A stretch of 64,000 nucleotides of DNA from Escallonia rubra (Eukaryota > Streptophyta > Magnoliopsida > Escalloniales > Escalloniaceae). This document shows, in pieces, positions 18,995-58,556 of the stretch (the first letter of the stretch is position 1; each line of letters begins with the position of its first letter). A model generated the notes under the pieces. It saw only the letters and a list, made by a program, of their open reading frames with translations, did no database searches and was not told where the DNA came from. Location: positions 119,792 to 183,791 of the forward strand of contig JAVXUO010000520.1 of the NCBI GenBank assembly GCA_033065855.1, given 5' to 3'. Position numbers and translations under genes: made by a program.

Positions 18995-21013
18995 TTTATC
19001 GAGCTTTTAAGGACAATAGGGTGTCATAATGTAACCTTTAATGGGGTTGTGGTGTCTAAACACCGCTCTTAATTCTGTGTTAACAACATAGTTGCACTTG
19101 TAAGTTCATATGCTTTATTGCTTCAAAGGCTATATTTTTCAGTCATGTACTTTTATTTCTTGCAAGGATTTAAACTATGCTTGCGAGCATCAACGGTGAC
19201 GTATAAACCACTTCATAAGCAAGGAACAAATTCACAGCACCCTACGACTTGAAGTCGCGTCCAGGGTTTTTGCTGCAACATTCTGCCAACTTGGCATTAC
19301 CTATTGTCTTGGTATATTAGGTCACACAATGACCTCGGTCAGTGAATCTCTTGCTCAAACAGACTTAGCATCCTCTGTCTCTACTGATCATTGGTGACAT
19401 CTTGCTCAGACAGACTCCGTATCCTCTAGCTTTATATGCTCGTTCAGTCAAGCAGGCATATATGGTCTTCTATATTGCTTCCACAAGGTCTTCTTGCGAC
19501 CGGCCCTAGATATAGGCTGAAAAGCCATATTTATATATTCATGCCTTCTCAAAGGCAAGGGCGGCTTCATATCTTACGATATCATCAATATTATGGGCCT
19601 AATGCCCTGTGTTCTTTTCGACAGGGGAGCTTCATAGCAACGGCCATATTATGGGCTCAATTCCCCGTGCTTTCTTATTTAATGCCAAGACAACAAGCAC
19701 TTGTTGCTTCGATCGAAACCCCTGAGGGTATTTTCATGAGCTTTGCGCTCTATCTGCCCCCGAGGGCGTGTATGATGAGAACTTTAAGTTTCGTCAACCC
19801 TCAAGGGTATTTTCATGAGCTTTGCGCTCTATCCGCCCCTGATGGTGTGTACGATGAGAACTTTAAGTTCCGTCAACCCTCAAGGGTCTTTTCACGAGCT
19901 TTAAGCTCCATCCGCCCTCAAGGGTGCGTACGACGAGAACTTTAAGTTCTGTCAAACCCTCAAGGGTATTTTCATGAGCTTTGCGCTCTATTCGCCCTCA
20001 AGGGCGAGTACAACGAGAACTTTAAGTTCCATCGAACCCCCGAAGGGTATTTTCACGAGCTTTGCATTCTATCCGCCCCCAAGGGCGTGTACGATGAGAA
20101 CTTTAAGTTCCGTCAAACCCCTGAGGGTATTTTCATGAGCTCCGCGCTCCATTCGCCTTCAAGGGTGCGTACAAGAACTCTAAGTTCCGTCGAACCCTTG
20201 AAGGTATTTTCATGAGCTTTGCGCTCCATCCGCCCTCAAGGACGCATACGAGAACCTATGTTCCATTATACCCTCGAGGGTAATTACACGAGCTCTGTGC
20301 TCTATTAGTCCTTAAGGGCGCTTACCAGAACTCTACGTTCCACTAGCCCCATAGGGCGGTCCCTCGAGGGATGAACACCCCCAAGGGTGGCAGGATAGAG
20401 CTCGAGTACTATCCGAACGGTTTAGCTACAGTTTTAACCCGTTAAACGACAAAGGACTATGGGACTTCATCCTCCCATCATTCTTTGTCAATTCAAAACC
20501 CAGCCAAGCGTGAGTGCAAGGCTTCTTTGCCAGCTCTTAGCTGATGACAAGAGTTCGCGTCAAAGTAAAACGCAAGCATGATGTGGTCAGCTCAAGCTAA
20601 AGCACAAACACTTGCATAAAATGAACACCCTCTAAAAGGAGAGATGACCCCTCGAGGGGACATTCAAACACTTAGCACATGCAACAACTAGCATGCACAA
20701 CTTTGTGTCCTCTCTCGAGGGAGGCTACCATGTGGCACAACCTCTAAAGGATCTCGAGATCCCATGATTCGTCTTCCCAAAGACGATTCTGAATAGCCTA
20801 CTCAGGCGACATTCTAAGACTTAGATCTTGAGAGCTAGGGTTCTAGCGCCCTAGTTGGGCAAAGTTCCAAGGCCGAAGCTCCCAAGAGCTTAGGTTGAAG
20901 CACATGGAGGAAAGAAATATTGTTACCCCTTCAAGTGGATAGAGAATCCCTTACAAATTTGACGCGTGTCTCGAGACACCAGGTATAAACTTCCTCAGCC
21001 AAACATTTTGGCT
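18995..21013 (+). mobile_element. Truncated fragment of a large non-coding LTR element
   Basis: A fossil. It is homologous over about 2 kb to the interior of the LTR element at 54112-58556, in the opposite orientation. Shared blocks include GCTCATATGCTTTATTGCTTC-like DNA near 19100, the ACTTGGCATTA block near 19290, the tandem-repeat zone and AGCCAAACATTTTGGCTAAGA at the right end. No LTR is attached at either side, and the right end stops exactly at the palindrome starting near 21012. No gag or pol similarity was seen. Confidence 0.65.
19705..20350. repeat. About eight imperfect 80-bp tandem repeats with regular dyads
   Basis: Each unit carries GGTATTTTCATGAGCTTTG followed by GCGCTC, a Pro/Arg-type segment and GAGAACTTTAAGTTCCGTC. 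Each unit also has two short dyads, one of the form ACCCTCAAGGGT and one of the form GCCCTCAAGGGC, spaced about 40 bp apart. The protein-like frame through it (19436-19945) reflects the repeat, not a gene. A shorter, more decayed version lies in inverse orientation near 55200-55470 inside the complete LTR element. Confidence 0.75.
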
Positions 21014-21482
21014 AAGAGTCTAGCCAGGTGATCAACCTCTATAAGTCCGGCCTTTTATGAGTCTCAATGCTTTAATTTAGAGGCGATCATCCTTTATATA
21101 TAGAGTTCTTTTAATACCACTATACCGACACAATTTGGTAAGTACCTTGGCATTCAACTTGATATATTAGAGAAAAAAAGAGAAGTTTTTAGAGCTTGTT
21201 GAGAAAGTCCAGTGCAAATGTGAAGGCTGAAAAGGTAAAATGCTTGATAAAGTTGGACAGCCTACTCTTTATTAAGTTAGTGGTACTTCTCATCCATTAT
21301 ACTTGTGTATCTTTTGCCAATACATGGTTGCCATTAGATAGACTCCATTCTTGGTCACTTTTGGTAGTCGGGAGATCCTTCAAAGAAAACTCTCCAATGG
21401 GTAAACTGAAACCAGTCCTTCTCATCCTTATGCCATAGTTTTGATCGAGGTTCTCAATGGTTCTTGGTTATCACCTAATCCT
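21012..21482 (+). pseudogene. LINE reverse-transcriptase scrap in the left palindrome arm
   Basis: An inverted copy of the LINE piece at 22508-22981. The 80-residue frame 21196-21438 (KVKCLIKLDSLLFIKLVVLL) is the decayed equivalent of the LINE region that usually reads like KLLSxAGRxTLIKSVxxxIPTY. It differs from its partner at 22557-22799 at a single residue (N versus D). It is inactive. Confidence 0.6.

Positions 21483-21484
<2 letters not shown>

Positions 21485-21539
<55 letters not shown>
21485..21539. repeat. (TA)n tract, left
   Basis: An uninterrupted TA dinucleotide tract between the outer left arm and the inner foldback. Confidence 0.9.
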
Positions 21540-21543
<4 letters not shown>

Positions 21544-22440
21544 TGAGAGCGTGGGCAAAATAGGAGAAGTTGCAAGCGCGATCTGACCGTCCATCCCGAA
21601 AGATGGACGTGCCAGATCGCGCCTTTTTCGAAAGCTGTCAGTCGTCCGCCATACAGTATGGCGGACGGGTTTTTTTTACCAAATTGCCCCTCCGCGCCTG
21701 TCCGCTAAACTGTATGGCGGAGGACATTAAAGTCCTGATGGGAGACAGCCAAAAAGACGTCCGCGATACTGTATGGCGGACGTCCCCTAGGCTGACACCT
21801 GTCCTTAGGCTGACACCTTTTTGCCCCAACACTTAATTTTTTTTTTCGGTCCTATTTACGTCCGCTATACTATATGGCGGACAGTCAAGGAGAAGGAAGA
21901 CTCCCCAACACTTAGTTTTTTTTTGGCCCTATGTACGTCCGCTAAACTATATAGCGGACAATCAAGCAGAAGGAAGCCAAAAAATTTAAGTGTTGGCTTC
22001 GGCTTCCTTCTGCTTGACTGTCCGCTATATAGTATAGCGGACGTACATAGGGCCGAAAAAAAAACTAAGTGTTGGGGAGGCTTCCTTCTGCTTGACTGTC
22101 CGCTATATAGTATAGCGGACGTACATAGGGCCGAAACAAAAAACTTTAAGTGTTGGGGCAAAAAGGTGTCAGCCTAAGGACATGTGTCAGCCTAGGGGAC
22201 GTCCGCCATACAGTATCGCGGACGTCTTTTGGCTGTCTCTCATCAGGACTTTAATGTCCTCCGCCATACAGTTTAGCGGACAGGCGCAGAGGGGCAATTT
22301 GGTAAAAAAACCCGTCCGCCATACTGTATAGCGGACGACTGACAGCTTTCGAAAAAGGCGCGATCTGGCACGTCCATCTTTCGGGATGGACGGTCAGATC
22401 GCGCTTGTAACTTCTCCTATTTTGCCCACGCTCTCAACGG
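21540..22440. mobile_element. Foldback element with ten GTCCGC...GCGGAC dyads
   Basis: A 0.9-kb inverted repeat whose ends begin CCGTTGAGAGCGTGGGC on both sides; the first 80 bp are nearly identical. Each arm contains five short palindromes of consensus GTCCGCYATAC plus its reverse complement. The left-arm positions are about 21643-21667, 21701-21721, 21756-21784, 21859-21883 and 21935-21960. The right-arm positions are about 22019-22044, 22097-22122, 22198-22226, 22260-22282 and 22313-22337. Between dyads are poly-T/poly-A runs next to CCCCAACACTTA and a repeated GGCTGACACCT. No coding capacity. Both flanks are TA repeats, so a target duplication cannot be read. It is probably a foldback or MITE-class element; I do not recognise the family. 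Confidence 0.75.
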
Positions 22441-22447
22441 ATCAGCT

Positions 22448-22450
<3 letters not shown>

Positions 22451-22511
<61 letters not shown>
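22451..22511. repeat. (TA)n tract, right
   Basis: A TA dinucleotide tract between the inner foldback and the outer right arm. It is separated from the foldback end by a short ATCAGCTCC segment that has no counterpart on the left. Confidence 0.9.
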
Positions 22512-22512
<1 letters not shown>

Positions 22513-23175
22513 AGGATTAGGTGATAACCAAGAACCATTGAGAACCTCGATCAAAACTATGGCATAAGGATGAGAAGGACTGGTTTCAGTTTACCCATTG
22601 GAGAGTTTTCTTTGAAGGATCTCCCGACTACCAAAAGTGACCAAGAATGGAGTCTATCTAATGGCAACCATGTATCGGCAAAAGATACACAAGTATAATG
22701 GATGAGAAGTACCACTAACTTAATAAAGAGTAGGCTGTCCAACTTTATCAAGCATTTTACCTTTTCAGCCTTCACATTTGCACTGGACTTTCTCAGCAAG
22801 CTCTAAAAACTTCTCTTCTTTTTCTCTAATATATCAAGTTGAATGCCAAGGTACTTACCAAATTGTGTCGGTATAGTGGTATTAAAAGAACTCTATATAT
22901 CAAGGATGACCGCCTCTAAAGCATTGAGACTCATAAAAGGCCAGACTTATAGAGGTTGATCACCTGGCTAGACTCTTAGGAATATGTGAGCAATAGGTTG
23001 GTCCAATTTCGGTACTACTTCCATTATTTGCTTTGGAAAAACTATAGCTATCATCTACAAACAAAAGGTGTGGAAGAGAAATATCGGCGTAAGACAACAC
23101 CTTCAAAGTCACCTCGAACTTGTGCCTTGTTTAAAAATGCGGAGATTGCTTTAGTAGAAAAAGTAAGAAGATAAG
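22508..23175 (-). pseudogene. LINE reverse-transcriptase fragment, copy A
   Basis: Read on the minus strand, the DNA around 23063-23043 encodes LFVDDS, a variant of the LINE RT catalytic FADD/YADD box. Further on come segments matching the SGQVINLxKS-like region, KYLGIQL..LEKK and a KAKLLSxAGxxTLIKS-like tract. Many frames are broken and no endonuclease or zinc-finger part is attached. It predates the A/B duplication, since copy B carries the same piece. Confidence 0.65.
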
Positions 23176-23283
23176 GTTAGAGAGGGTCCCTATCTCAACC
23201 CTAGTGGTAAAGAAATCACTAGGAGAGCCACTAACAAGCACAACATACAGCACTGTGGTGACATAAAAAGAGCACTTCGTTGT

Positions 23284-23300
23284 TGGGGGGGGGGGGGGGG
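23284..23300. repeat. Poly-G run
   Basis: A homopolymer of about 17 G in copy A. The matching place in copy B (near 45968) reads GGGGCCTGGGGGAGGAGGGG. Confidence 0.85.
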
Positions 23301-23971
23301 GTTCATATGGTTGGGACATGGGAAATATGTACAAAATGAATGGGTTATGTGCTGGACTCTTTTTATAGCGAATAAATGTTTTTCTTTTTAAAGAAAATGA
23401 AGAGGAAAGTTTAAGATTTTTCAATTAATTTGGAGAGAATACCATATCTAGCTGTAGGTAGGAAGTGCCACCCAAGAGTAGGAGGGTCATTACTCTCAAA
23501 GTTCAAGGTGTGAGTACACCTGGTTCAATATGGTGTTTGTACTAAGTCAATACTGAAGTCTCACAGATGCTAAAACAATGGCCAAATTGACTAAAAACTT
23601 GAGAGTATAAGAAGCCTTTTGTAAAATATTTGTTATTTCAAATTTGCGAATGAACCTCATTTGATTATAAGGAGGTATTTGTAGGCGTAGTTTTCTTGCT
23701 AATCACGAAATGCACATATATGTTTCTTTCTTCTCCGAGTAAACAGTCTTACTCGAGGCCAACCTTACTTAATGCTGACTTGATTCCTCGAGTTTGTCCA
23801 TGTTGCCCAAGCTATTCTATCATCTTGTTGAAGTGTACATTATTTGAGTTTCCCTTTTTCTCCTTTTTTGGTTTAATGACTTTATTTCTGAAAGCTTATT
23901 AACAAAATTTGGCTCTCACTGCTTAGTTCCTGATAAAACTTAAAGGGCTTGAGGATTTTAGCACTTAGAGT

Positions 23972-25073
23972 TAGAGGTGTCAAAGGGCCAGGCTTGGGCC
24001 GGCCCAGCCCGGGCCTAGAGGACCAGAAAATGGGCCGATCCATTTAGGGCTTCGAGCCTTGGAAATCGGGCCGGGCCAAGCCTAAATCTAGGAAATGGAG
24101 GCCCTGTCCAGGCCCAAGCCCTAGCCCTAACTCTAGGGCCGGGCCTAGGGCCGGCCCGAGCCCTTTTTTTTATTTCCTTTTTTGTGTTGTGAAAATATTA
24201 ATTCATGAAATAAATACAATTGATAGGCCCTAAACCATTCAATATCTCTCTCGTGGTTAATGAAGTCTTAGAGCTTTATTTTTACTTTATTTGAGAATAT
24301 TGATTTGCAACAAAGAGTAATTTTATTCGCAAAAAGACAATCTTTTCACAGGAAAGAATATAAATTTTAGTCATGAAGTTTTTTGTTTTCTAAACTCAAC
24401 AATGGTTACCTACAAAACTTTTTCCAATGATATCTCTAAAAAAATTCACTCCAATATACCTCTAGCTTTGCATTTTCATAGTATTAAGTATCTCATTAGA
24501 AGCATGCATCATTAGACCACTTTTATCATGAATTTTCTCGGGCTTTCTAGAGTTATGTTATCCATTTTCATTGCCTAAATTGTGTTGTTTCTAATTCCTA
24601 GACAAACAAATATATATGTTCTCTTCATAATTTCATGAAACTAATACAGAGGAGCCTTGCAAGTAAAAGCAGATAAAGAAGTAGGAACCATCATCATGAG
24701 CTGAAAAGAAATGTGCATGTCCAAAAAGTTAAATAAAAAGAGAAAAATATGAGGTAGAGAGAGAATGAGACGTGAGAAAGAAGGGGAAAGAAAAAAATGT
24801 AAGTAATTCAAAATGGTTTAGGGTCAGATTTAGGGCCAAAGGGCCGGGCCAGAATAGGGCCGAAAAGAGAGACAAAACCGGGCCGAGGGCAGGGCCTGAC
24901 CCAGGCCTTTTTAGGGCCGAGCTAGCCCGGGCCAAATTTGAAAAATATTAGGCCTGGCCCAAGGCCCTACGGGTTAGGGCCAGCACTATTCATCTTTAAT
25001 ACCGGGCCAACCCGGGCCTATTTAGGGTCGGGTCGGGCCGGCCTGCGGGCGGCCCGGCCCTTTGACATCTCTA
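23972..25073. mobile_element. Non-autonomous hAT, 1.1 kb, GGGCCGGGCC family
   Basis: The ends are TAGAGGTGTCAAA and TTTGACATCTCTA (inverted, one mismatch). The flanking 8-bp target duplications are CTTAGAGT (23964-23971) and CTTAGAGC (25074-25081). Copy B of the segmental duplication, near 46640-46655, has the uninterrupted sequence (TCATAGAGCTATTT), which is the empty site. Subterminal 200-bp zones are packed with GGGCCGGGCC motifs around an AT-rich core with no transposase. It was probably mobilised by a relative of the BED-finger hAT at 59347. Confidence 0.88.
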
Positions 25074-25954: not shown

Positions 25955-26965
25955 ATGGTCTGTGAAAAGAAGATCGTTGACGAAGTCTCGGGATGGCTTA
26001 GGGTGTTCGATGATGGCTCGGTCGACAGGACGTGGACCGGGCCACCAGAGGTCGAATTCATGGCCCAGCCTGTGCCTCCGCACGACAATTTCGTCGAGGG
26101 CGTCGCGACTCGCGACGCCCTTGTCAGTGCAGACTCGGATCTTCGAGTCCGCATTTATTTGCCAGAGAACAACGAGGCCATGGACTTGGACAGGCTACCT
26201 GTCGTACTTCACTTCCACGGCGGTGGCTTTTGCATTAGCCAGGCCGACTGGTTCATGTACTATTATATTTACACTCGTCTTGCACGTAAAGCGCGTGCAG
26301 TTATCGTCTCCGTTTACCTCCCCCTCGCTCCGGAGCATCGCCTCCCGGCGGCCTGCGATGTGAGCTATTCCACCCTCCTCTGGCTCCGGTCCTTGGCTAG
26401 TGGGGATTCTCACGAGCCATGGCTGAGTCATTACGCGGATTTTAACCGCGTGTTTCTCATCGGGGACAGCTCCGGGGGAAACATCGTGCATGAGGTGGCC
26501 GCGCGTGCCGGGAACGAGGACCTGAGCCCTCTTCGGCTAGCCGGAGCGATACCTATCCACCCGGGATTCGTCCGGTCCGAGCGGAGCAAGAGCGAGATGG
26601 AGAAACCCGAGTCGCCATTCTTAACCCTGGACATGGTGGACAAGTTCCTGAGCCTGGCGTTGCCGGTTGGGTCCACGAAGGACCACCCAATAACGTGCCC
26701 GATGGGGTACGGAACCCTGTGGATCGAGGACTCGAAGCTGCCGCCTTTCTTGCTATGCATGGCCGGCGATGACCTGATTTGGGACACTGAAATGGAGTAC
26801 TATGAGGCCATGAAGAAGGGAAAGAAGGAAGTGGAGCTGCTGATTAGTGCAGGAATGGGTCACAGCTTTTATCTGAACAAGATTGCCGTGGACATGGATC
26901 CGAATACCGCGTCAGAAACTGAGAAACTGATCCTGGGGATCACTGAATTTATCAGCAAGCATTGA
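25955..26965 (+). CDS. Carboxylesterase, HSR203J class (copy A)
   Basis: A 336-residue alpha/beta-hydrolase of the plant carboxylesterase (CXE) family, expected to hydrolyse short acyl esters. It aligns end to end with tobacco HSR203J (335 residues), an esterase gene switched on during the hypersensitive response. Visible motifs: oxyanion-hole HGGGFC at 88-93, nucleophile elbow GDSSGG with Ser172, catalytic Asp273 in GDDLI (likely, by family position), and His303 in GMGHSF. There is no signal peptide or membrane segment, so it is likely cytosolic. The start is fixed by the MVxEKK N-terminus shared with HSR203J and by the TATA box 105 bp upstream. There is no intron. It is about 93-94% identical to copy B; unlike B it has Cys3, Thr254-Leu-Trp and one extra residue in the 71-76 loop. 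It looks intact. The physiological substrate cannot be read from sequence. Confidence 0.95.
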   Translation: MVCEKKIVDEVSGWLRVFDDGSVDRTWTGPPEVEFMAQPVPPHDNFVEGVATRDALVSADSDLRVRIYLPENNEAMDLDRLPVVLHFHGGGFCISQADWFMYYYIYTRLARKARAVIVSVYLPLAPEHRLPAACDVSYSTLLWLRSLASGDSHEPWLSHYADFNRVFLIGDSSGGNIVHEVAARAGNEDLSPLRLAGAIPIHPGFVRSERSKSEMEKPESPFLTLDMVDKFLSLALPVGSTKDHPITCPMGYGTLWIEDSKLPPFLLCMAGDDLIWDTEMEYYEAMKKGKKEVELLISAGMGHSFYLNKIAVDMDPNTASETEKLILGITEFISKH

Positions 26966-33234: not shown

Positions 33235-35469
33235 ATGCATTAAATGAGTAAAACTACCATTGCAGTCGATTGTATTCCCAATGCAGTTGACTTGATTCCC
33301 TCTAAACTAACCATTAGTGTCTTGTCCTTGAAAAGAGCCGTTGGAACTGAATTTCCACCTATGCAATGTAGTCTACTGCTTTACCCTACTACCTATCGAC
33401 TGCTTTACAAAAGCCCATTTCTTATTTTGGGCACAACGTTTTCTAGAAAAATCGGATTGAGGTGCCATTTTTTGTGTTTGAAAGCTAATGAAAAGTTTTA
33501 TCAAAACCTGAAAATATTATCACCGAAAAACATTTTTGAGAAAATATGAATAAGCTCCAAATTTCACTCATTTTTAAGAAACACACTTATGGGAAATGTT
33601 ATGATCTCACATGCAGTGCACAAGGTATCCTAAGTCATTTTAGGTCATAGTCATCAATCCAAGCATCAAACTAAGACTAGTTACATAAATAAAAGATCAT
33701 TCATAATCCATAGTAACTTAACTTATGTATTTTTTGTTGCTCTTTGACATTGGACTTGATGAAGCTTCCATAACATGTCCATTATAGCTTTAAGTTTCTT
33801 CCGCTTTAACCCACATATCCAACTTCTCAAATGTGTCGTCATGAGTGCGTATGTGTATACCTACTAGGAATCCACTCAAAGCACACATTAGAAAATGATC
33901 AATGTGTTGTTATCATCAAAACTAGATGTAACCCTAGGTTATTTGACCATAGGGCTAACATATAGTTTGTCATAATTGGAAATTAGATTTGAGAATACTA
34001 CTTGAATGATATGTTTTGGTAAATGTATCCTTAGCTGGGAATGTCTAGCTAAGGAGGAAAGCACTACTCACTTGTACATATAAGCTTTGATTTTAATCCA
34101 ATTGACTTTCACCCAAAACAAAATAGATTTGTACATGCACAAACATAAATTACTCCAAAGATAGCTCTTAGATTACACGATTGATTCCTAATAATAACAC
34201 TTCTAATATGAGGAGAGCCAAACACAAACATGAAAACTATTTTCTTGAAAGACAAGATATTTTCTTCATACAGAAGAAATTTATACACGGTAACACTCCC
34301 CCTCAAGATAGAGGATGTAGGTCATAAATGCCATCTTCGACTTGAGAAAAAGAAATTGGTCACAACTAAGTAACTGAGTATCTGTAGAGCTTTGGCAAAC
34401 ATCATTAGGCGTTGTTGAAGTTTTTCACAAGCAAAAGGGAAAAGAAAAAGTTAGGTGTCCACATTCTCAAATTAAAGTGGACTAGTAAAAAAAGTGCACC
34501 TAGATGCACAAACTGGAGGATGGAAAAAGTTGAGCATCCAGAATTACAGATTGGACGAGAGAAAATTAGATGGCATGTCGAGACTAACTGATAAAAAATA
34601 GAAACGAGAATAAGTATCATTCAGATTTACAAACTAAATAATTGAGAGAGGCTCCAAATTCACTGACTGGACAAAAAAAAAATTAAAGGTAGTTGATGTA
34701 AATGTGGTTGCTAACTTATTTACTGGGCAGCGAGGAAGGACCTGCTGTATAAATGTCTGTAGCAATTGCTGCCAATATGGAAAGAGACAAATGTAGTGGC
34801 TTTTAGCAAAAGAGACCAAACCCTAATACATGAATAACTAAAGAAGGAAGCACACCCACTAGCACAGGTTAAAAATATGGCAATCATGGAAGTTGTTCTG
34901 TGGAGCATCAATCATAATTGTGATAATGTATATATGTTTTTAGATTGTAAGAGTATGGTTAGCGATCTTGTAGAAAACTCTATTTAAATCACCTATGATC
35001 CATGACATAAAGTTTTTCCCCAAAAAAGTTACGGGTACCCTGAGCAGAGGTACATGAAGCTTGTGTAAGGGCAAAGAAAGCCCAAGATATACCATGTAAT
35101 GTGTCTGTTCTTTAATCAAATTCTACTATTTCTGAAAGAAGAAAAAAAAAGGATAAAAGGGTTCAATTTATAGTGGTTTGAATAAATCTAACATTCAAAC
35201 CATTTAACTAAGAGAAGGTGAACCCAGGCCCATGCCAGCCTCTGCCTTCTCCAACATTGGTTTTTTTTTATCATTATTTCATAGGTTGTGACTATGGCTA
35301 TACAACGAGAGAAGGAATGTCAAATAAAGAGCAATTTTATTAAGTTGGTAACACATTCAAATAAACCAAAATTATCAAAAGTACGGCGGAGGTAAGAAAA
35401 AGCTTGTCTAGGGAAGGTGGCGATTAGTCATCAAGGGTTTTTTGTAAGGTTGAAATCATCAATTGCTTA
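33235..35469. other. Unassigned intergenic DNA
   Basis: No gene recognised. CTCCCCCTCAAGATAGAGG near 34307 is a phrase often met in plant repeats, but no boundaries or coding domains could be supported. Confidence 0.3.
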
Positions 35470-36558
35470 TCTATATAATATATAATAAGCGAAGCGAGAA
35501 AGACATTGATAGCTTCTTTGCGCGACACATCATCGCTTCTTTATATGACACGTCATCAGATTATTATTTTAAGATTACTTCTATATAAGTAAGTCTTTTT
35601 TAATTTAAAAGTAATTTTAATCATTCTAAAACTCAACCTAATCAACATACTAATCTATTAAGACTTTTTTTTTATAATTATGTCCTTAAAATTCGAAGAA
35701 TAATTTGAATCATTCTAAAACTCTACATTATCATTATACTAACTTATTAGGAGTTAATATTGACTATTAGATCTTTAAATCTACTATCTAATATGAATAT
35801 AATAACTCATATATATAAAAAAAACAAAAATAATACTTTCGATTTAGAAGAAAAAAATTAATTTAAAAACTAATTCTAATCATTCTAAAACTCTACCTAA
35901 TCAATATACTAATCTATTAAGACTTAATTTTGACAATTATGTCCTTAAAAGTGTTTTCTAATATGAAAATTAAAATTCATAGACCCAAAAAATAACTTAT
36001 GAGATTTAGAATAAAAAACATGATCAATCATTCTAAAATTCTACCTAAGCAATATACTAATCTATTAAGGCTTCTTTCTAACAACTATGTCCTTAAAATT
36101 CAAAACTAATTCTATTCATTCTAAAACCTAACTTTATCATTATATTAACTTATTAGGACTTAACATTGACTATTGTATCTTTCAAAACTACTCTCTAATA
36201 TGAATATAAAAAATCATATATATAAAAAACGAAAATAATACTTTTGATTTAGAAAAAAAAATAATGTTACAATTAAGAATAAACAACTTACGAAACTTAG
36301 GAAAAAAATGATCTAAACGTAATTTTGATAGGTGCCTTTCAATTTAAATTTGATTAATTTTGCAAGAATAATTAAAATTTAATTCTAAATATTTTAGAAC
36401 TCAACTTAATCTATACACTAACTTATTATGACTTAATTTTAACTATAGTATTTTTAAAATTACTCTTTAATGTGAATATAAAAATTCGTATATCGAAAAA
36501 AGATGAAAATAATGTATTAGATATAGAAGGGGGGGAAATGACGTTCTAATTAAGTCAA

Positions 36559-37153: not shown

Positions 37154-40059
37154 ACCATTTAATTAATCAAGACTATAATTTTAGAAGTGTATGAGACGAA
37201 AAAATATTCTACTGGATATCATGTTTGTATCTTAATAAATTGGTAATTTTTTGAAGCAATGATTCATGAAAAAGATAAGAACAAACTTTGACATTTACGA
37301 TTCCAAAGATTAAGAACTCTTAACCTAACTTTTGAAGCTAAGAGACTTGGTTTTGAGATGTTACATGTTGAACCACTAAAAGAGCTTAATTAATAATAAT
37401 ATTGTCTTGACAAGTTACTTGAAACTTTTACAAATAAAGTATTAAAAATTTCTTACTAACAATTATAGTTTTAGAAAAAGTATAAGATAATCTCTTTTTG
37501 TTTCTTAAATGTGGTACGCATTGATAAACTTTTTGTAACTTTTTAAAATATTTTATTAATTTACTCGAGCTAGATTCAGGATCCCAACTTATAATATCTA
37601 ATAACTGAGGCGAGAAATGCAATTATAGCTCATGACACGTCTTCGCATTGTGTTTCTAATATAATAAGAGTTATAAAAACTAAGCTTAAACACATTAATG
37701 TTGCTAAAGATCTCCAAACATTACTTTGAACGGATTCTTAATTAATTAAATCGACAAATATAGTAAACATTTAAATAATAAGCCTTATGCAATTCGAAAA
37801 AACAATTCAAAATATTCTAACCAATATAGTAAACTATTATGACTTTATTTAAATATTATATATTGAAAGCCCTCTAGCATGAAATATTAACCTCCAAAAC
37901 AAAAATTACTTAAAATATTTAATAAGAAAAAAAATAGGTACTATTTCAAATTCATATCTAAGTTTCCTATAAATTCACATATGAATATAACTAAATATGT
38001 TGGTTAAAAGTTTTGGTCAATAATTTCCTTACTAAGGTTTTGCGCTATCCTATTTAGTCGCAATGGTTAAATGCATATTTACCATAATATTCAGATTCTA
38101 TACGAGATAAATTAAATAAATAGTGTAAATTTAAAATATTAATTATGTGAGCATTTCTTAAATACAACTAATTTTATGTTGAATCAATTTTTTTCTATGG
38201 TACTTTTATTGTGAGTAATTAAACTCTTAAGCATACTAAATTGTATATTAGCATTATACCATTTATGATTTTATGTTAACTTTTATACTTTTGAATAAAA
38301 TTGCATATAAAATCTAAAAAGATTTTAGTTATGTTGTGATGAATGTAAATTAAAACTTAGATTAAAAACCTTATTATCTCTGAAGATAAATCTTACTTAG
38401 TAAGCATGCTTATTGTATGCTTTGTGAAATCTTGGTTAAATTTTATTCAACAATTTTCTTACTACGAGATTTTTGAACTATCCTGTGTAGTCATGTTAGT
38501 TAAACTTTATATAATTACCTCATGCAGTGATTACTATATTCTTTGTATACTTTGTTGGTGGATTACATTTACTTTTGAAAGTAGCACATCATCCTTACTT
38601 AATTAGTCTATGCTATAAACAAATATATGGACCAAAATCTTCTCTATCAAAATTAAACTAATATGTAATTAACATTATGGGTAACGCATTCAAGATACAA
38701 ATTATTTTTAAAAAGCTCTTAGAAAATAATAAAAATGTCTTGAGTAATAACAAATTGATCTCAATATGTTCTCCGCATATTTTTATCAGTAGAGAATTTA
38801 CTTTTTCTTTTTTGTTTAGTAAATGAACTTTTAATTTTTATTCATCTACATAGTTACCAAATCAGAATTAACAAATATGCACAAGGACATTGCTTAATGA
38901 TATTTCACCATAAGGATTAATTTATTTTATTACAAACGAGTTCAAGACAAAAATTAAAGTAACTATCTTTGATGAAATAACCATAATAAAATTGTGCAAT
39001 ATATTTTATTATGCATTTCAAAACTACTAAAATAAGTTAATGTTAATAAACGTCCCGTGCTTGGCACGGGATTCTGGGCTAGTTTTAATTTATTGCGCAT
39101 GCATTTCAATTTTTTGAAGTTCAGTGTCAAACTCAAAAGCATGTTCATAGGGCCAATAGTCTCACCACACCATCACCTATTTTAGGCCAATGTGAGATAT
39201 ATATCATAATCCATCCCCCCTTCCCCCCCTCCCCCCCTAATGGAATGTGGATTAGGTGATAACCAAGAACATTGAGAATCTTGATCGAAATTATGGAATG
39301 TGGATTAAGATGAAAATAACTGGTTCCTTTTCTTTGAATGATCTACCAACCACAACAAGTGACCAATAGTAGAATCTATTACAAGGGTTAATTACAAAAC
39401 TGTCCCCTGTAGTTTACATGTTTTTGCACTTTGCCTCTCGTGTTTACAAATTTTATAGTAATGTCCATTGAGGTTAACAAAACCATTGCAAACAACTCCA
39501 AAAATGAACGGCCGTTCAAATTCAGCCGTTAAGAGCCCACGTGCACAGCACACCATGTTTTCGTATGGGTAGATCGGTCATTTTCGATCCCCATGTTCCC
39601 TCGGTTATCACAAAATAAAAAAACCAACCGTTGTACGATTGAGGAGAGAGGAACAGAGAAAAGTGGGAAAACAGAGAATGGTCGATCACCTCCTGCAAAT
39701 CGAATTTTTGGGACGAAGAAGATCGCGTGTGGGATATTGATGAGCGAAAATGGATTGGGAACCCCGAGAAAGCGACGTCGCACATCCCATTTACGGTCAG
39801 TGCTACTGAAACCCATATTTTGTCCCTGTTTGATTAAACTAGGGTTTGAGTTTTAAGTATATAATTAACTAATGTCTTTCACATGTGCAAATCATTTTAT
39901 AATTCCAGTTCTAATTAAATAATTTTGTTTGTTAAAGTGTTGTTGTTTGTTCGTGCGTGTTGTTTGTTGATAGAATAATGTTTTTGAAGTTAAAACTTTT
40001 ATTAGTTTATGTTATATGCAGTAGTTAATTTGGGATTGTGCATGTTTGGTTTGTTTGTG

Positions 40060-43019
40060 TGTTTTCAGATCCTCATTCTTCTCTGTTAACCATAAAACTG
40101 CACGATGAGGGTCAATTTAAGAACATGCCACACAAGGTTTACACCCCTTGCAAAATAGATTACTTTGATTACCGTGACTTTGACATGTTAAGTTTGATTG
40201 AGATTGATAACATGGCAGAGAGTGTAGGAGCTGTAGGATTTATGAACTATTAGTATTAGAAGCCTGGGTTAAGCCTTGACAATGGACTAGTGCAGATGAT
40301 TGTAGACTCAGACATTTTGGCATTGAAAGACTGTATAAATTCATAGGGCCAAGTAGAAATATATTTGGAAAGTTTGTCAAAGGATAAGATGATGGAATCA
40401 ATTTTAACTCAGTTAGGGCTTAAAGAGACTGTGGGGTCTAGTGTGGTTATTGAAGAGCTTGATGATGTAGGCAATGTAGGAAGAAATGTGCCTATAGGGA
40501 CTACTGTGCCTGTTTGGAGCTTAGGAAAACAAGGGACAACAAGTACACAAGGGGGTGAGAGGTGGTTCAAGGTTTAGGCTAAGTCTAGAAGGTTCAAGCA
40601 ATGCTGGTGATGATGGGCTTGGTACACTAGCATCAGTAAATGTGGGCACTGGGGTGGAGGAAAACATAAACCAGAGCAGTAGGCCAACAATGGGCACTCA
40701 GGGGGAGGGAAACATAAATCAGAGCAGTAGGGCAAGAATGGGCACTAAGGGCAGGAGAACCATACACCAAAGGAGGGCAGCAAGGGGCAGTGCTAATGAG
40801 GGGCCAAGGGGTAGTGTTACTGGTGCTAATGAGGGGCCAAGTGGTGGTACTTCTGAGGGGCCAAGGGGTAGTGCTACCGGTGCTAATGAGGGGCCAAGTG
40901 GTGGTGCTTCTGAGGGGCTAAAGGGTAGTGCTACTGGTGCCAATGAGGGGCCAAGTGGTGGTGCTTCTGAGGTGCCAAGGGGTAGTGATTCTGACACTGA
41001 TTCTGATGATGAATCATACTGCTCAGATTTGTTTGATAGTGACTATGATGCCAATGAGGATGATAGATTGTATGAGAAGAATGTTGACATGAATGTAGTA
41101 GAACATGGAGTGGGTAGTAGAAGCAAGGGTAATGGACAAATAGTGGCACATTTTGAAGAGAAAGAATATGACTCTAATGAGTGGCATGAACATCTACCAT
41201 CAGATTTTGAGGGAAAAATTGATAATGCAAGAAACAAGAAACTAACTGGGGAATTTAACCCTAAATCTGACATGAGAAACCCTGAGTTCAAGGTTGGTAT
41301 GATGTTTAAAGACAACAAGGTTTTCAAGGAAGCTGTTAGGCAACATTCTATTTTGGAAGGAAAACCAGTAGTATTCCCCAAGAATGAATCAGGAGAGTTA
41401 GGGCTAGGTGTGCTTCATAAGGGTGTCAATGGCAGGTGTATGTGTTTAGGATGCAAGGAGACAATGAGGTTGATTTGGTTGTGAAGACTGCAGTAACCCA
41501 GCACACCTGTACCAGGGTACACAAGAATAAACATGTGACCAGTACTTGGCTAGCTGCTAGATACAGTAGAGATTTCAGATTAAATCCTAATATGAAGGTT
41601 GGTACTTTGAGAAATACATTGATGAGTGATCACCAACTAGATGTGCCACTTTGGACAGTTTACAGAAGCAAGAGGAATACATCAATGATGGTTGAGGGCA
41701 ATATAATGGAACAATTTGGGCAGTTGAACTCTTACATTGATGAACTTAGGATAAGTAATCCTGGCACCACTGTGGATCTACAATATGAACCAGGGGGCAT
41801 AGGACAGGGTGAGTACAGGTTTCAAAGGATTTATATATGCCTTGGTGCATTGAAGGAAGGGTTCAAAGCTGGGTGTAAGAGATAGATATGGCTAGATGGG
41901 TGCTTTTTGAAAGGTCCCACTGGTGGTCAGCTCTTGACTGCAGTGGGCATTGATCCTAACAACCAAATGTATCCAGTGGCATATGCTATTGTGGAGGCTG
42001 AAAACAGAGACTCTTGGGGTTGGTTTGTATAGCTTTTGGGTGATGACTTAGAGATAGAAGATAGTTTGAGTTGGACATTTTTGTCTGACAAACAAAAAGG
42101 GTTGGTTGGGAGCATAGAGTCATTGTATCCTCATACTGAGCACATGTTTTGTGTCATGCACTTACATGCAAACTTCAAGGCAGCATGGTTTACTGGGATT
42201 GCTTTGAGAGATGCTTTGTTTGCTGTAGCCAAGGTAACCAATGTGGTGAGATAGGAACATAAAATGAAAGAGATGGCTGACATAGATAAGGAAGCAGTGG
42301 CCTGGCTTGCTGATAAGCCACTTACAGAGTGGTCTAGGTCATATTTTAGTACAAATGTTAAATGTGATGTTCTTTTGAACAATTATTGTGAGAGCTTCAA
42401 TGCAATGATAAAGGAAACAAGGGATAAATTGATCATTACTTGTCTTGAAACAATAAGAAATACCTTGATGGCAAGGATGAGGTTTTATAGGGAACAAGCT
42501 GAGGAATGGAATTGTGAGATTTGTCCTGCAATACAGAGGATAACTGAAAAATTGAAGGTGTATGCTGGGGAAGGGATACCATCACACTCAGGGGAGTTGA
42601 GGTTTCAGGTAGCATGTCCATGGGAGGAGCAGTTCACTGTGGATCTCAAGCAGTACACATGTTCATGTAGGAGGTGGGACTTGAATGAGATTCCCTGTCC
42701 CCATGTCATTGCATGTATTTGGCACAAGAACCCGGTAGTAGCGAATTTCATTCACGAATGCTACAGTATTGACACATACAATAAGGCTTATGCACCAATC
42801 ATTAACCCAATGAATGGTCTAAGTATGTGGCCTAAAAGTAATTTACCCTTCATTCTACCCCCCACTTATAGAAGGCCAAGTGGCAGACCTAAGAAACTAA
42901 TGATAAGAGACAAATATGAAGCTGAGGATAACACATGCACTGGCAAGATGTCGAGGAAAGGAACAACAACTAGATGCATCATATGCCATCAGCTTAGGCA
43001 CAATAGGAGGAAATGCTAG
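40060..43019 (+). pseudogene. MuDR-type transposase, disabled
   Basis: Domains in order: PB1-like N-domain (LLTIKLHDEGQFKN to FMNY, 40075-40250); a Gly/Ser/Glu repeat tract (40790-40990, ANEGPSGG units); MuDR domain (NPEFKVGMMFKDNKVFKEAV near 41290); and MULE transposase core with DDE candidates in IWLDGCFLKG, LSDKQKG and NNYCESFNAM. Then come a SWIM finger (YTCSCRRWDLNEIPCPHVIA) and a CX2CX4HX4C knuckle (RCIICHQLRHNRRKC) at the end. At least six in-frame stops are present, all TAG: 40251, 40257, about 40344, 41883, 42030 and 42252. Frame changes lie near 40555 and 41435. A Gln/Pro-rich continuation at 43120-43780 may be a further 3' exon. The protein would bind the terminal repeats and cut and paste the element; this copy cannot. 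Confidence 0.9.
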
Positions 43020-44613
43020 AGCAGCAGACATAATACTTCATCTGTAAGCAATTATTGATTTTATTTAGTTGGCCTGGTTGTTATTTATGTTTGAGATTAA
43101 TGTATTGTAACCTCTTTAACAGGGAAACATGCCAATTGAGCAAGGCATAGCCTCACAACAGGGAGATAATGCAACTGAGCAAGGTAGAGCCCCACAACAT
43201 GAAGATATGGCAACAATTTGGGGGGGGGGGGGCAGAACCCCAAGAAGGCAAAAGTTACTAGTATGTAAATGCCAGAGCTTGTGATTTGAGTTAACCCTCA
43301 TAAATATGTTTATTTACTGAAAATGTCTTTTTACAGCCTAGAAGGCAACAAACTGCATCTCAACTAAGCTAAGGTTCTCCACAAAGCTCAGCTGTTACAA
43401 AGCAGATACCAGTAGGATTTATGCTAACTCCACAGGCAACATTAGCCCAAAGACCATCATGGCCTATACCAAGCATGGTAAAGCCACCACCAACATCAGC
43501 CCAAGACACTCCATTCATAATGAGAGGGGGTAAGAGGTATGTGAGTTTGTCAAATTTGAAGGATGCAGCTGTTGGAGGTGGCCAAAGCCAAGGTGGCCAG
43601 AGCAGAGGGAAATAGAAGGCTGCCATAAGAGGTCTTAGCCAAAGGAAGGAAAAGTCAAAAGACAAGGGAGGCCCAAATCCAACAGGAGGACAAATAAGCA
43701 CAAGATCAAGAACAACTGCAAGAAGTCAAGGTGAAAGACAAGCACCTACTGGTACAAAGGGCAAGGGAAAGCAAAAGTGATAGAATGTCAGTGTAGTTTA
43801 GTTTTGTGAATGTAGGGAACTCACTGTTCATCTTTGTTCAAAGTATATGAAGGTTGGATGGTTTTTGGAGAGCAGTAGATAAATTGGTAGATGGCTGGTT
43901 TTTTGGAAGCCTAGTATATACACTAGAAGATAGTGCCAAAGTACATGTTTTTGGATGTTGGCTGTAATTAGAATTGGGAAGGAATTGGGAAAGATGATAT
44001 TGTTTTTGTGTGGGATGTAATTTAATTGGAAGATTGATGACAAAACCATTGGTTGTGAATCTGTATGTTGGATGTAATGCAATTTGATTACTTGTCTTGA
44101 GATTTGGTTGTGAATCTTGCATGAAAGAGATATTTTAGCACTTGTGATGATGCAAATGTGATGAATCTGCCAGTGAGATGATGCAATTTCATTGTGTTGT
44201 ATTGCAATTGGAATACATCACAATGCAGTGTTTAAGGACAGGTCCATTTCAATATTTAGGTACAGGTTTGTCAACATGTAACAATGTATAGGGGACATAT
44301 TTGTCCTGAAAATATAAATCTCAGGGGACACTTTTGTCAATTATTGTAAATGACAGGGAATAGAATTGCAATACACATGGGACATTTTTGTTCGGAATGT
44401 GAAAAGTACAGGGGACACTTTTGCCATTAACATTAAAAGTACAGGGAACATAAATGCAAAAACATTGAAATTAAAATTATCTTCATTACATTGTTTGAGT
44501 ACACAGCTTGGAAATAGGGGATGTTGATTTTTTTAGGGTAATTCCTAATTCAATACATTCCATAGCTCAAGACATTACAAAAAATCCCCAATTCAGTACA
44601 TTCCTAGCAATTT

Positions 44614-44983
44614 TTATAAGCTGTTACCCACATCTTCGCCTTCATTGTTGCTCATGGCCTCTGTCCCGTCGACAAAATAAGACAATAATGCAATCACAGT
44701 GAATAGAAGCAACACCCAACTACTGATTGCAACAATCTTCCAAAATCTCTCATTTGACCTGTTAATCGTAATTGGAGGGTCGCGCCAAGAAAAAAATCCA
44801 CACCTACCAACCTGTGAGAACAAGGAGATTGTTCATTCAGCTCACGAAATTGAAGAAAAAAAAAAGGTTAAACACAAAACTCACCTGGTTGCTGCAAGTC
44901 CAAAATCTTCGGCCCGGATTTAGATCTGTCTACGAAGTCTTAGCTACGGCTTTCTGACCACACTGATAGTATACATGAGCCAT
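44614..44983 (-). pseudogene. GRF zinc-finger plus membrane-helix protein inside the MULE
   Basis: Two exons on the minus strand: 44983-44885 and 44811-44614, with GT-AG splice sites in phase; 98 residues plus stop. Exon 1 reads MAHVYYQCGQKAVAKTS, a TAG, then TDLNPGRRFWTCSNQ. Exon 2 continues VGRCGFFSWRDPPI, then WVLLLFTVIALLSYF. NPGRRFWTC and CGFFSW are hallmarks of GRF-type zinc fingers (nucleic-acid binding). The TAG sits where relatives have Trp (KTSWT), so it is probably a decayed TGG. The first Cys of the usual CxCG is Tyr. A hydrophobic helix follows the finger. Small GRF-TM proteins are common in plant genomes, with no firm function. Whether this one aids the MULE or was captured is unknown. 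Confidence 0.7.
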
Positions 44984-45334
44984 GAGATGGGTTCTTCAAA
45001 ATCTCTATCTCTCTCCTCCCCTGAAGTCTCTCTCTCATATCTTGAAACCCCTAGAGAAAACTGAAGCATAAAGTGATTTTGAAGGGAAATAGGAGTGACA
45101 GTCGGTTTTGGAGGGAACATGGGGATCAGAAATGATCGATCTACCCATGCGAAAAACGGGTGTGCTGTGCATGTGGGCTCTTAACGGCTGAATTTGAACG
45201 GCAGTTCATTTTTGGAGCTGTTTGCAATGGTTTTGTTAACCTCGAGGGACATCATTGCAATAGTTGTAAACACAAGGGGAAAAGTGCAAAAATATGTAAA
45301 CCACAGAGGACAGTTTTGTAATTAACCCCTATTA

Positions 45335-45890
45335 TAATTAAAAATGTATAGGTAAAAGATACACATACATATAGCGGATGAGAAGTACCACTGGCTTGAT
45401 AAGAGTAGATTGTCCAACTTTGTTAAGCACTTTAGCTTCCTAGCCTTCACAATTGCGCTGGACTTTCAACAAGCTCTAAAAAATTCTCCTTTTTTTCTAC
45501 AATAAATCAAGTTGAATGCCAAGCAGGTAATTACCAGAATGTGTCTCCATAAGGATATTAGAAGAATTCTGTATATCAAGGATGACCGCCTCTGAAGCAT
45601 TAAGACTGATAAAAGGCTGGACTTGTGGAGGTTGATCACCTGGCCAGACTCTTGGCAATATGTGTACAACAAGTTGGTCAATTTTGACAGTACTTCCATT
45701 ATTCGCTTTGAGAAAAATTTAGCTGTCGTCTACAAACAAAATGTGAGGAAGAGAAAGGGAATATCAACGTGAAGCAACACCTTCAAGGTCACCTCGAGCT
45801 TGTGCCTTGCTTAAGGAAGCAGAGAATGCTTCAGAACAAAAAAAATACATAAGGAGAGAGAGGGTGCCCCCTGCCTCAACCGACGGGTTG
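45335..45890 (-). pseudogene. LINE reverse-transcriptase fragment, copy B
   Basis: Partner of the fragment at 22508-23175. The minus strand shows LFVDD near 45725, then YCQESGQVINLHKSSL (in the frame 45699-45466), typical of the LINE RT palm region. A further part lies left of the MULE at 39252-39384. Broken in several frames. Confidence 0.65.
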
Positions 45891-46713
45891 GGGTAAATAA
45901 ATCAGTAAAGGAGCCATTAACAAGAAATCATACGACACTGTGGTAACACAAATAAGAACACTTCATTATGGGGCCTGGGGGAGGAGGGGTCCATGGCTGG
46001 GACATCGGAAATGTGTAAGAAATGAATGGATTATGTGCTGAACTTTTTCTTATTGTGGATACATGTTTTTATTTAAAAAAAATTGAAGAGGAAAGTTAAG
46101 AGTTCTTAACAAATATGGAGAGAATACCATATAGATCTACCTATAGGCAGTAAATGCTACCCAAGTAGAGGAGGGTCTCTGCTCTCAAAGTTCAAGGTGT
46201 ACGTACACTTGGTTCAGGATGGTGTTTGTACTAAGTCAACACTGAAGTCTCACAAGTTCTGGATTAGAAAAGAATAGTCAAATTGACTAAAAACTTGAGA
46301 GTATAAGAAGCCTTTCGTAAAATATTCTGTATTTTTTATTTCAGAAAATTGTGAATGAATCTCATTTGAATATAAGGAGGTATTTGTAGGCATAGCTTTC
46401 TTGCTAATCATGAAATGTAAACATATGTTTCTCTCTTCTCAGAGTAAACCGTCTTACTCGCGGCCAACTTTACTTGATGCTGATTTGATTCCTCGAGTTT
46501 GTCCCTGTTGCTCGAGCTAGTCTATCATCTTGCCAAGTGTACATTCTTTGAGTTTCGCTTTTCTCCTTTTCTGATTCTTTTGGGAGCTTATTAACAAATT
46601 GATTAGAGAGCTTATTTCCTGATAAGCCCTAAGGGCTTAAGGACTTTAGCTCATAGAGCTATTTTTTTGAGAAAACTTAAAGAGTTATTAAGCACATCTT
46701 ATCTCATGTTTAA

Positions 46714-47809: not shown

Positions 47810-48817
47810 ATGGTCTATGAAAAGAAGATCGTCGACGAAGTCTCGGGATGGCTCAGGGTGTTCGATGATGGCTCGGTCGACAGGACATGGGCCGGGCCAC
47901 CAGAGGTCGAGTTCATGGCCCAGCCCGTGCCTCCGCACGACAATTTCGTTGAGGGTGTTGCCACTCGTGACGCCCTTGTAAGTGCGGACTCGGGTCTTCG
48001 AGTCCGCATTTATTTGCCAGAAGAGAAGGCCACAGACTTGGACAAGCTACCTGTCATACTTCACTTCCACGGCGGTGGCTTTTGCATCAGCCAGGCCGAC
48101 TGGTTCATGTACTACCATATTTACGCTCGTCTTGCGTGTAAAGCGCGTGCTGTTATCGTCTCCGTTTACCTCCCCCTCGCTCCGGAGCATCGCCTCCCCG
48201 CAGCCTGCGATGCGGGCTACTCCGCCCTCCTCTGGCTCCGGTCCTTGGCTCGTGGGGATTCTCACGAGCCATGGCTGAGTCATCACGCGGACTTCAACCG
48301 CGTGTTCCTCATCGGAGACAGCTCCGGGGGAAACATCGTGCATGAGGTTGCCGCGCGTGCCGGGAACGAGGACCTGAGCCCGCTGCGGCTAGCCGGAGGG
48401 ATACCTATCCACCCGGGATTCGTCCGGTCCGAGCGGAGCAAGAGCGAGATAGAGAAACCCGAGTCGCCATTCTTAACCCTGGACATGGTGGACAAGTTCC
48501 TGAGCCTGGCGTTGCCGGTTGGGTCCACGAAGGACCACCCAATAACGTGTCCGATGGGGTACGGAGCCCCGTCGATCGAGGACTCGAAGCTGCCGCCATT
48601 CTTGCTATGCATGGCGGGCGATGACCTGATTTGGGACACTGAAATGGAGTACTATGAGGCCATGAAGAAGGGCAAGAAGGAAGTGGAGCTGCTGATTAGT
48701 GCAGGAATGGGTCACAGCTATTATCTCAACAAGATTGCGGTGGACATGGATCCAAATACCGCATCAGAAAATGAGAAACTGATCTTGGGGGTCACAGAAT
48801 TTATCAGCAAGCACTGA
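47810..48817 (+). CDS. Carboxylesterase, HSR203J class (copy B)
   Basis: 335 residues, the same length as tobacco HSR203J, intronless, a paralogue of 25955-26965. It has the same role: an alpha/beta-hydrolase carboxylesterase, probably cytosolic, of the class induced in hypersensitive cell death. Catalytic set: HGGGFC near 87-92, GDSSGG with Ser171, Asp272 in GDDLI, His302 in GMGHSY. The start MVYEKK matches the family better than the MVCEKK of copy A. About 22 residues differ from copy A, most of them outside the catalytic motifs; the clearest cluster is APS versus TLW at about 253-255, in the region before the catalytic Asp. All family motifs are retained and no break is seen, so both copies are likely functional. 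Expression differences are plausible given the divergent upstream DNA. Confidence 0.95.
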   Translation: MVYEKKIVDEVSGWLRVFDDGSVDRTWAGPPEVEFMAQPVPPHDNFVEGVATRDALVSADSGLRVRIYLPEEKATDLDKLPVILHFHGGGFCISQADWFMYYHIYARLACKARAVIVSVYLPLAPEHRLPAACDAGYSALLWLRSLARGDSHEPWLSHHADFNRVFLIGDSSGGNIVHEVAARAGNEDLSPLRLAGGIPIHPGFVRSERSKSEIEKPESPFLTLDMVDKFLSLALPVGSTKDHPITCPMGYGAPSIEDSKLPPFLLCMAGDDLIWDTEMEYYEAMKKGKKEVELLISAGMGHSYYLNKIAVDMDPNTASENEKLILGVTEFISKH

Positions 48818-54111: not shown

Positions 54112-54528
54112 TGTTGATGCTAAAATATGCTTCGGGTGTGCTCTAGAGCCCTAGCTTGAACCGATGGCCTGCAAGACAGAAAACAAGTGACCGCCGTGTG
54201 AAGTTCTCAGTAGAGAACTCTCCGATGCTTAAGACAGAGCACAACTAAAAGATAGTAACTCTAAAAAGGCTGGAAAAAAGATTGTGTCTTTGTGTGTAGT
54301 TCTTTGCGTACCTGGGAGTAGCCCCCTTTATATAGCTGTAAGAGAAGACCCCTAGTAGGACTGGGTTTTTGACCAGATGTGTTAGGATCACGTTAGGATC
54401 CTTGAGGATCACATCACGATCTTTGATGACTCTTTCAGAATCTTAATAAGATAGTTATCAATCTCCCAGTTTGACTGGGATCGCCGGGTGTCCCCCAATT
54501 ATTGGGAGTGTATTTTTTAGTTATATCA
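54112..54528 (-). repeat. Terminal repeat (left) of the LTR element
   Basis: Starts TGTTGATGCTAAAATATGC and ends TTAGTTATATCA. It shares AGCTTGAACCGATG, TGTGTAGTTCTTTGCGTACC and AGTTTGACTGGGATCGCC with the right repeat. Confidence 0.85.
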
Positions 54529-57500: not shown

Positions 57501-58187
57501 CTCTACTACTAGGGTTTCAACCCATAGAGCAGCAGCGGTGCTGCTGCCTTTTCTTTCTCTCTCTCTCTCCTTTCCTTTTTTGCTTGGTTGTTGTGGATGC
57601 TCCGGCAACTTCGTGGCGGTGGTTGGCGGTTTGTGGTGCCTGTAACTCCATTGGCGATGGTTGTGTAACTCTGGTGGATGAATCTATGTTGATTTTTTAT
57701 GTGGTTGTCTTTGCTGCCTCGACAGCTTTATGATGGTGGCCATGACTCCATTGGAGCTGTCTTGTAATTTTGGTTGTCGTGACTGTTTCTCAGCAGCCGA
57801 TTGTGACGCCGTTGACTTTGATGGCTTTGACATGGTTGTGTAGGCATGGGCCTGCCCGTGTAGGCGCTGTTGACGGTTGCGTCGTTTTCGTTTAGGGTTT
57901 TGACCATGGGGCCAAGTGGTACCATTGCGGTAACGGCAGCTCCATGGCTGCTGTGCGGCCGTGAAGGTTGCTCTTCGTGGCCTGTGAATGGATAGGACTG
58001 TATTTTTCTTCCTGTGTTTTTTTTCCCGATTGTTTGACGGTGGTAGAACCGTGTTTGAAGACGACGGGGCTGTCAGTGTCTAGACTGTCGGCGGTAGCTT
58101 GCGATACAACTATTGAGGTTTCTTGAGGTCAATCGGTTAGGCTGGCAGATGTCACATATGGGTGTGCTTGAGGTTTCTTGAGGTCAA

Positions 58188-58556
58188 TCGATACAACTAA
58201 GAATATGCTCTGGGTGTGCTCCGGAACCCTAGCTTGAACCGATGACCTACAAGACAGAAAAAGAGTGATTGTCAAGAGGGATTCCCGGTGGAAAACTTTC
58301 TGATGCTTAAGTTAAAGCACAACTACTCTGAAAAAGCAGGAAAAAGACTGTGTTTTTGTGTGTAGTTCTTTGCGTACCTGGGGGTAGCCCCCCCGTGGGC
58401 CAGATGTGTTAGGATCGCATTAGCATCCTTGAGGATCATGTCACGATCTTTGAGAACTCTTTTTAGAATCCTAATAAGATAATTGTCAATCTCTCAGTTT
58501 GACTGGGATCGCCAGGTGTCCCCAAATTATTGGGAGTGTATTTTTTAGTTATATCA
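58188..58556 (-). repeat. Terminal repeat (right) of the LTR element
   Basis: Homologous to 54112-54528. The inner boundary is approximate because GAGGTTTCTTGAGGTCAATC and CGATACAACTA each occur twice just inside it (about 58102-58200). Confidence 0.8.

Follow-up and report, generated by a model that had tools for sequence, protein, structure and literature searches.

How can a palindrome nested within a palindrome be built into a plant genome, and which of its parts are old and which are new? The question is raised by a locus in a 64,000-nucleotide stretch of the Escallonia rubra genome (GCA_033065855.1, contig JAVXUO010000520.1, positions 119,792 to 183,791 of the forward strand), hereafter the window, which lies at the end of contig C2949 in an assembly of 566 Mb and 3,222 contigs. 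Our analyses point to a sequence of events in which a foldback Mutator-like element (MULE) probably came first, its flank being then copied backwards from a broken end that had folded on the element, with the far end of the copy closed by microhomology.

Architecture of the palindrome

The two-level palindrome spans 21012-22979 and is confirmed as real in the assembly. When 21012-21484 was aligned with the reverse complement of 22511-22979, the two outer arms proved near-identical, differing by 5 substitutions, one 5-bp indel and one 1-bp indel. The initial annotation of this DNA had drawn the palindrome at 21012..22981, which is accurate to a few bases, and had counted by eye two substitutions in about 300 bp between the arms, a near-identity that the full alignment upholds. 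The two TA tracts that it placed inside the arms were located, as was the 0.9-kb foldback with near-identical ends between them, here called the core, the halves of which, aligned over 445 columns, show 13 substitutions and 6 gap columns. The parts are as follows, copy A being the duplication copy that carries the palindrome, copy B its counterpart further along the window and L003 a paralogue on contig C1461.

21012-21484, minus strand: left outer arm, 473 bp, a new inverted copy of 22511-22979
21485-21539, no strand: left TA tract, 55 bp, 27.5 repeats
21540-22449, plus strand: core, a non-autonomous foldback MULE that lacks its left terminal 9-10 bp but has its right terminus (22441-22449) intact
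22450-22510, no strand: right TA tract, 61 bp, 30.5 repeats, against 13 bp at the paralogous empty site in L003
22511-22979, plus strand: right outer arm, 469 bp, ancestral DNA, colinear with copy B and L003

The segment 21540-22442 folds as a single hairpin at -557 kcal/mol. Shuffled versions averaged -124 (z -67) and none of the 20 reached so low an energy, so that chance is excluded. The core holds 10 copies of a motif based on the palindrome GTCCGC...GCGGAC; a motif scan of viral_contigs with a 23-bp core palindrome returned 0 matches.

Old and new DNA

Two paralogues separate the ancestral parts of the locus from the added ones. In L003, which is 87% identical to the arm, and in copy B, the arm is followed by one and the same right flank, and beyond the TA position the two have a common left flank that differs from that of copy A. 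At the TA position itself L003 has 13 bp of TA and no element (an empty site), and an inverted arm copy is absent there from both L003 and copy B. Because both paralogues are colinear across these parts and L003 lacks the element, the comparison, which is one of sequences, confirms the arm, the TA site and the right flank as ancestral and the core as an insertion; by the same comparison, copy A is the copy that lost the ancestral left flank and gained the inverted arm. The initial annotation had taken the right arm to be old DNA also present in copy B and the left arm to be a new inverted copy; both points are confirmed by these two paralogues. The corresponding segments are:

22980-23973, plus strand: ancestral right flank, colinear with copy B, where the match ends at 46661
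39083-39194, plus strand: ancestral left flank in copy B, with a further piece at 34699-35470, lost from copy A
39249-39379, plus strand: copy B of the inner right arm, separated from 45344 by a MULE insertion
45344-46661, plus strand: copy B of the remaining right arm and right flank, 79.6% identical to 22670-23973

The common left flank is found at C1461:100228-101149, which matches 39194-39083 and 35470-34699 (pieces 100337-100228 and 101149-100337). For the left flank lost from copy A, the window contains no match of at least 100 bp other than copy B, nor do the 20 kb to the left of the window. Where the five arm substitutions are set against the paralogues, two are derived on the left (judged against both L003 and copy B), two are derived on the right (each judged against one outgroup only) and one is ambiguous. 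The arm has 12 matches, made up of the two window arms, two in copy B, five that were read (L003 and L005-L008), at each of which the arm is single-copy, and three short ones left unread. A LINE (long interspersed nuclear element) origin of the arms, prompted by an apparent resemblance to a plant LINE reverse transcriptase, was dropped; two translated pieces gave no Pfam match at E <= 1.

The core as a TA-associated foldback MULE

Searching the genome for the core brought up 3,348 first-look candidates, and 40 of these were scored. A TA repeat, in some cases imperfect, adjoins every one of the 25 tips printed, from 18 distinct loci, and the terminus (G)GGAGCTGAT is found on 24 of them, once with a substitution, the left tip of the window copy being the sole exception. 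Genome-wide, 1,029 places carry an exact match to the intact tip GGGAGCTGATCCGTTGAGAGCG. The inverted halves that make the terminal inverted repeats (TIRs) of the core a foldback are present in sister copies too, and insertion into TA microsatellites is seen both in the sampled tips and in the empty paralogous site with its 13 bp of TA. The family also has a candidate autonomous partner:

C408:119400-124900: L065, a TA-flanked MULE of 5.3 kb

The TIRs of L065 are 96% alike, and its ends match those of the core at 92-95% identity. Two neighbouring open reading frames (ORFs) encode FAR1, MULE and SWIM transposase domains (Pfam matches PF10551 at 1.5e-29, PF03101 at 1.7e-13 and PF04434 at 1.6e-5), the opposite strand carries an ORF with a plant mobile domain, and a PDB sequence search with the transposase gave 0 matches at E <= 1. 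The dispersed copies, the TA-adjoining tips and a relative with transposase domains and matching TIRs together argue that the core is a mobile MULE. On its sequence features it is a non-autonomous TA-targeting foldback MULE of the MuTAnT/SaTar kind, a placement made by features and not by alignment to those families themselves. Elsewhere in the genome, the family end at L063 (C855:43800-45500) is tip-less, and the next 1.4 kb or so contain no second end to match it; this element may be larger, or truncated.

Where the strand turned

The differences between the two halves of the core were compared with six full-length sister copies. Five of the 13 substitutions (21799, 21876, 21890, 21900 and 21945) occur in the same left/right sense in at least one sister, as do two indels, near 21670 and 21751, and the remaining eight substitutions are private to the window copy. 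Asymmetry common to sisters implies that the left half was not re-made from the right half; the left half was inherited, except possibly for its outermost 130 bp, which are uninformative. The support for inherited asymmetry comes mainly from the sisters L022 and L024. The turn accordingly lies at the left tip of the core or in the left TA tract, and not at the centre of the core, with an inverted-repeat spacer that was not re-copied as its inner boundary. At this very place the window copy is damaged: its left tip is without GGGAGCTGAT (9-10 bp), and the exact tip-less pattern TATATATATCCGTTGAGAGCG is found at only 10 places genome-wide, the window included, about 1% relative to the 1,029 intact tips.

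Outer junction with repeat X

On its outer side, the inverted arm ends within an unrelated repeat, X.

19053-21017, plus strand: fragment of X, a high-copy repeat, ended at 21012-21017 by the palindrome
21012-21017, plus strand: CTAAGA microhomology between X and the inverted arm, with its arm counterpart at 22974-22979

The fragment is homologous in pieces to 56333-54544 on the minus strand, and a 601-bp piece of X across the equivalent place gave 1,774 first-look candidates, 40 of which were scored. In 12 of 12 other copies aligned, namely the second copy in the window and 11 that were fetched, X continues past CTAAGR into one common downstream sequence. X is shortened in copy A, and the outer end of the inverted copy is a secondary junction at CTAAGA. 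The sixth base of the microhomology is A or G among the 12 other copies, giving a length of 5-6 bp; with equal base frequencies, the probability of such a match by chance is 0.0013 for at least 6 bp and 0.0046 for at least 5. No target-site duplication was seen by eye at this outer boundary. Within X, a 79-bp unit is repeated in an array, about 7.6 times, at 19725-20325. The second copy of X is contained in 54120-58562, which has direct repeats at 54120-54533 and 58197-58562 (75.5%) and is probably an old element of long terminal repeat type.

A model for the origin of the palindrome

We consider that the palindrome probably arose in a locus that already contained the element, when a broken end folded back and primed copying, with microhomology closing the far end. 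A foldback MULE would have inserted into a short TA microsatellite beside the ancestral low-copy sequence, and the TA tracts would have grown around it, as the empty paralogous site supports. A later break would have fallen at the left edge of the element, in the tip or the left TA tract, where the tip is now missing. The exposed 3' strand may then have folded on the 0.9-kb hairpin, bringing its end against the right TA tract, from which the TA repeat and about 470 bp of the right arm would have been copied backwards, the retained core asymmetry narrowing the position of the turn. The new end would then have left its template and joined X by end-joining or template switch; the join itself, at CTAAGA, is shown by the sequence, as is the loss of the ancestral left flank and of the distal portion of X. 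According to the available excerpts of the literature, work in yeast and human has established that copying can be primed by foldback close to inverted repeats, the spacer being retained: a break occurs by an inverted repeat, the 3' strand folds, the flank is copied in reverse and a second event seals the end (PMC7467729, PMC10622511, PMC3907307). The retained spacer, reverse-copied flank and sealed far end of the present locus match the features of such a foldback-primed inverted duplication. The initial annotation had proposed that a hairpin-forming foldback in a TA tract broke the replication fork and that repair copied flanking DNA in reverse; the hairpin and the inverted copying agree with our results, whereas a double-strand break, including one made by transposase, fits as well as fork breakage. 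Cleavage of the left tip by transposase is an attractive source of the break, since that tip is damaged.

Several observations weigh against this model. Had the trimmed tip simply been filled in, the nine missing bases should be present again, so the model also needs slippage between AT repeats or else a separate deletion. The sisters are uneven, with the opposite sense at 21799 in L026 and L032 and in the T-run at 21670 in L026. The core halves diverge at 13 of 439 positions and the outer arms at 5 of 468 (p = 0.055, trimmed alignment); this difference is marginal, so that dates do not settle the order of events, and a dating by core versus outer arms, which gave p = 0.022 with the loop and 0.055 when trimmed, was not used for it. 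An inverted flank beside the TA tracts is present in none of the 16 other scorable insertions, which makes the element at most a rare trigger. Among four of the nine other tip-less ends that were read, none had inverted unique flanks; three of these four lie within element clusters, and L061 is only 550 bp.

The order of events could also have been the reverse, with an inverted duplication around a bare TA tract and a later central insertion of the TA-targeting element. TA repeats are self-complementary and can form hairpins, the sampled family copies all lie in TA tracts, the inherited asymmetry of the core is compatible with a late arrival, and short-stem hairpins near a break can yield foldback inversions in yeast, as described in the excerpt available (PMC7467729). 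However, the TA tract of L003 is just 13 bp long, and the left tip, which is the one next to the new arm, would have to be missing through an unrelated deletion of a sort seen at about 1% of exact tips; we therefore regard this order as rather unlikely, and less likely than one in which the element came first. A near-perfect hairpin is an obvious place for a nascent strand to snap back, and a U-turn at the centre of the core would have re-copied half of the core, the TA tract and the arm. Such re-copying would, however, have erased the asymmetries at about 21670-21945 that are common to sisters, and is possible only for the outermost 130 bp of the left half, so that a central turn is largely refuted and very improbable.

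Palindromes are prone to inverted read chimeras and missed adapters, and the structure is known here from the assembly alone. Against an artefact of assembly or library preparation, which we consider highly doubtful, the arm substitutions are derived on both sides where polarity is readable, the left arm stops at a specific microhomology junction within another repeat, and the right arm runs on into a flank confirmed by paralogues. The least credible explanation, one that we hold to be extremely improbable, is that the whole 2-kb structure is a single larger foldback transposon with captured arm sequence. TIR elements can in general capture host DNA, but in L003 and copy B the right arm leads on into flanking sequence, inverted flanks are missing beside the TA tracts of 16 of 16 other scorable family loci, the outer boundary is a microhomology join and lacks a visible target-site duplication, and the arm is single at the five loci read of its 12 matches.

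How common such events are

Inverted flanks were scored at loci among L021-L050, 18 of them distinct, from which L049 was dropped (it is rearranged and its left tip was not found); the flanks were taken separately and TA was masked. The 17 loci scored include that of the window, which was chosen for its palindrome and has an inverted flank of 474 bp at 96%, beginning 52 and 65 bases outside the trimmed tips. This yields a first rough rarity of 1 in 17 scored loci, the window included and chosen as stated. What we describe is one event and not a demonstrated habit of the family. At L046 (C2027:841-4420), an inverted match of 136 bp at 80% lies about 450-530 bp outside the tips; it could represent a further member of the family, or else an inverted flank that is old and has decayed. 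Among the matches listed, L046 has further inverted matches of 35 and 29 bp, also in the range of about 450-690 bp from the tips, and shorter ones occur at L048 (one of 21 bp) and at L037 (several of 23-24 bp), in both cases at least 300 bp off. The matches at L046, L048 and L037 are not counted as the same event.

Relation to known systems

The following comparisons are with published accounts as far as their available excerpts go. The MuTAnT elements of Medicago truncatula resemble the core in being foldback non-autonomous MULEs in (TA)n tracts, and they have a TA-flanked autonomous relative, AutoMuTAnT, with a Jittery-like transposase (PMC4486113); its candidate counterpart here is L065. 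As here, empty sites have fewer TA repeats and loss of distal tip bases is variable; the MuTAnT TIR mask GGGGTTTGCTAGAACA differs by inspection from GGGAGCTGATCCGTTGAGAG in the present family, and, unlike here, the excerpted account describes no inverted duplication of flanks (PMC4486113). SaTar elements of guayule, rice, sorghum and citrus are likewise non-autonomous MULEs targeted to microsatellites, a likeness drawn from description and not from compared sequences; they are often clustered, have autonomous MULE relatives with the same TIRs, and have been discussed in terms of TA expansion after insertion, and neither foldback nor any word beginning with palindrom occurs in the available text (PMC5907723). 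Ac-mMITE elements of pineapple, likened to the core by description, are Mutator-derived miniature inverted-repeat transposable elements associated with TA microsatellites, and, unlike here, the excerpted account mentions no flank inversion (PMC8449440). The foldback inversions of yeast and human have in common with the present case hairpin-primed reverse copying, a single-copy spacer that is kept and a secondary join, and those cases were selected in yeast or found in patients (PMC7467729, PMC10622511, PMC3907307). The present event differs from them in its 470-bp copy, its setting in an assembled genome and its transposon spacer.

Among the titles and abstract openings searched, which left out most subscription papers, we found no plant TA-targeting foldback MULE with inverted flanks. 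Element and mechanism are both of known kinds, and the value of the locus is as a naturally preserved, nucleotide-level plant example that links a common type of plant transposon to the birth of a palindrome. It provides a record of how such palindromes can arise that is readable base by base because sequences to compare it with survive, namely the paralogue with its empty site, an outgroup copy, the sister transposons and the further copies of X. From a broader point of view, TA-targeting foldback MULEs, with at least a thousand ends in this genome, might repeatedly give rise to short foldback inverted duplications in plant genomes, perhaps via transposase cuts at one of their tips, a possibility that we think improbable. 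If it were true, flanking DNA would be rewritten into long hairpins that could feed the birth of small-RNA or hairpin-RNA genes.

Neighbouring features

The A/B duplication also contains a pair of carboxylesterase-like genes (PF07859) at 25955-26965 and 47810-48817. The MULE of about 6 kb inserted in copy B (39377-45336) has inverted ends that are 88% alike and 9-bp flanks CTATTACAA / CTATTATAA, and its ORFs include a SWIM finger and a weak, below-cutoff match to a MuDR DNA-binding domain.

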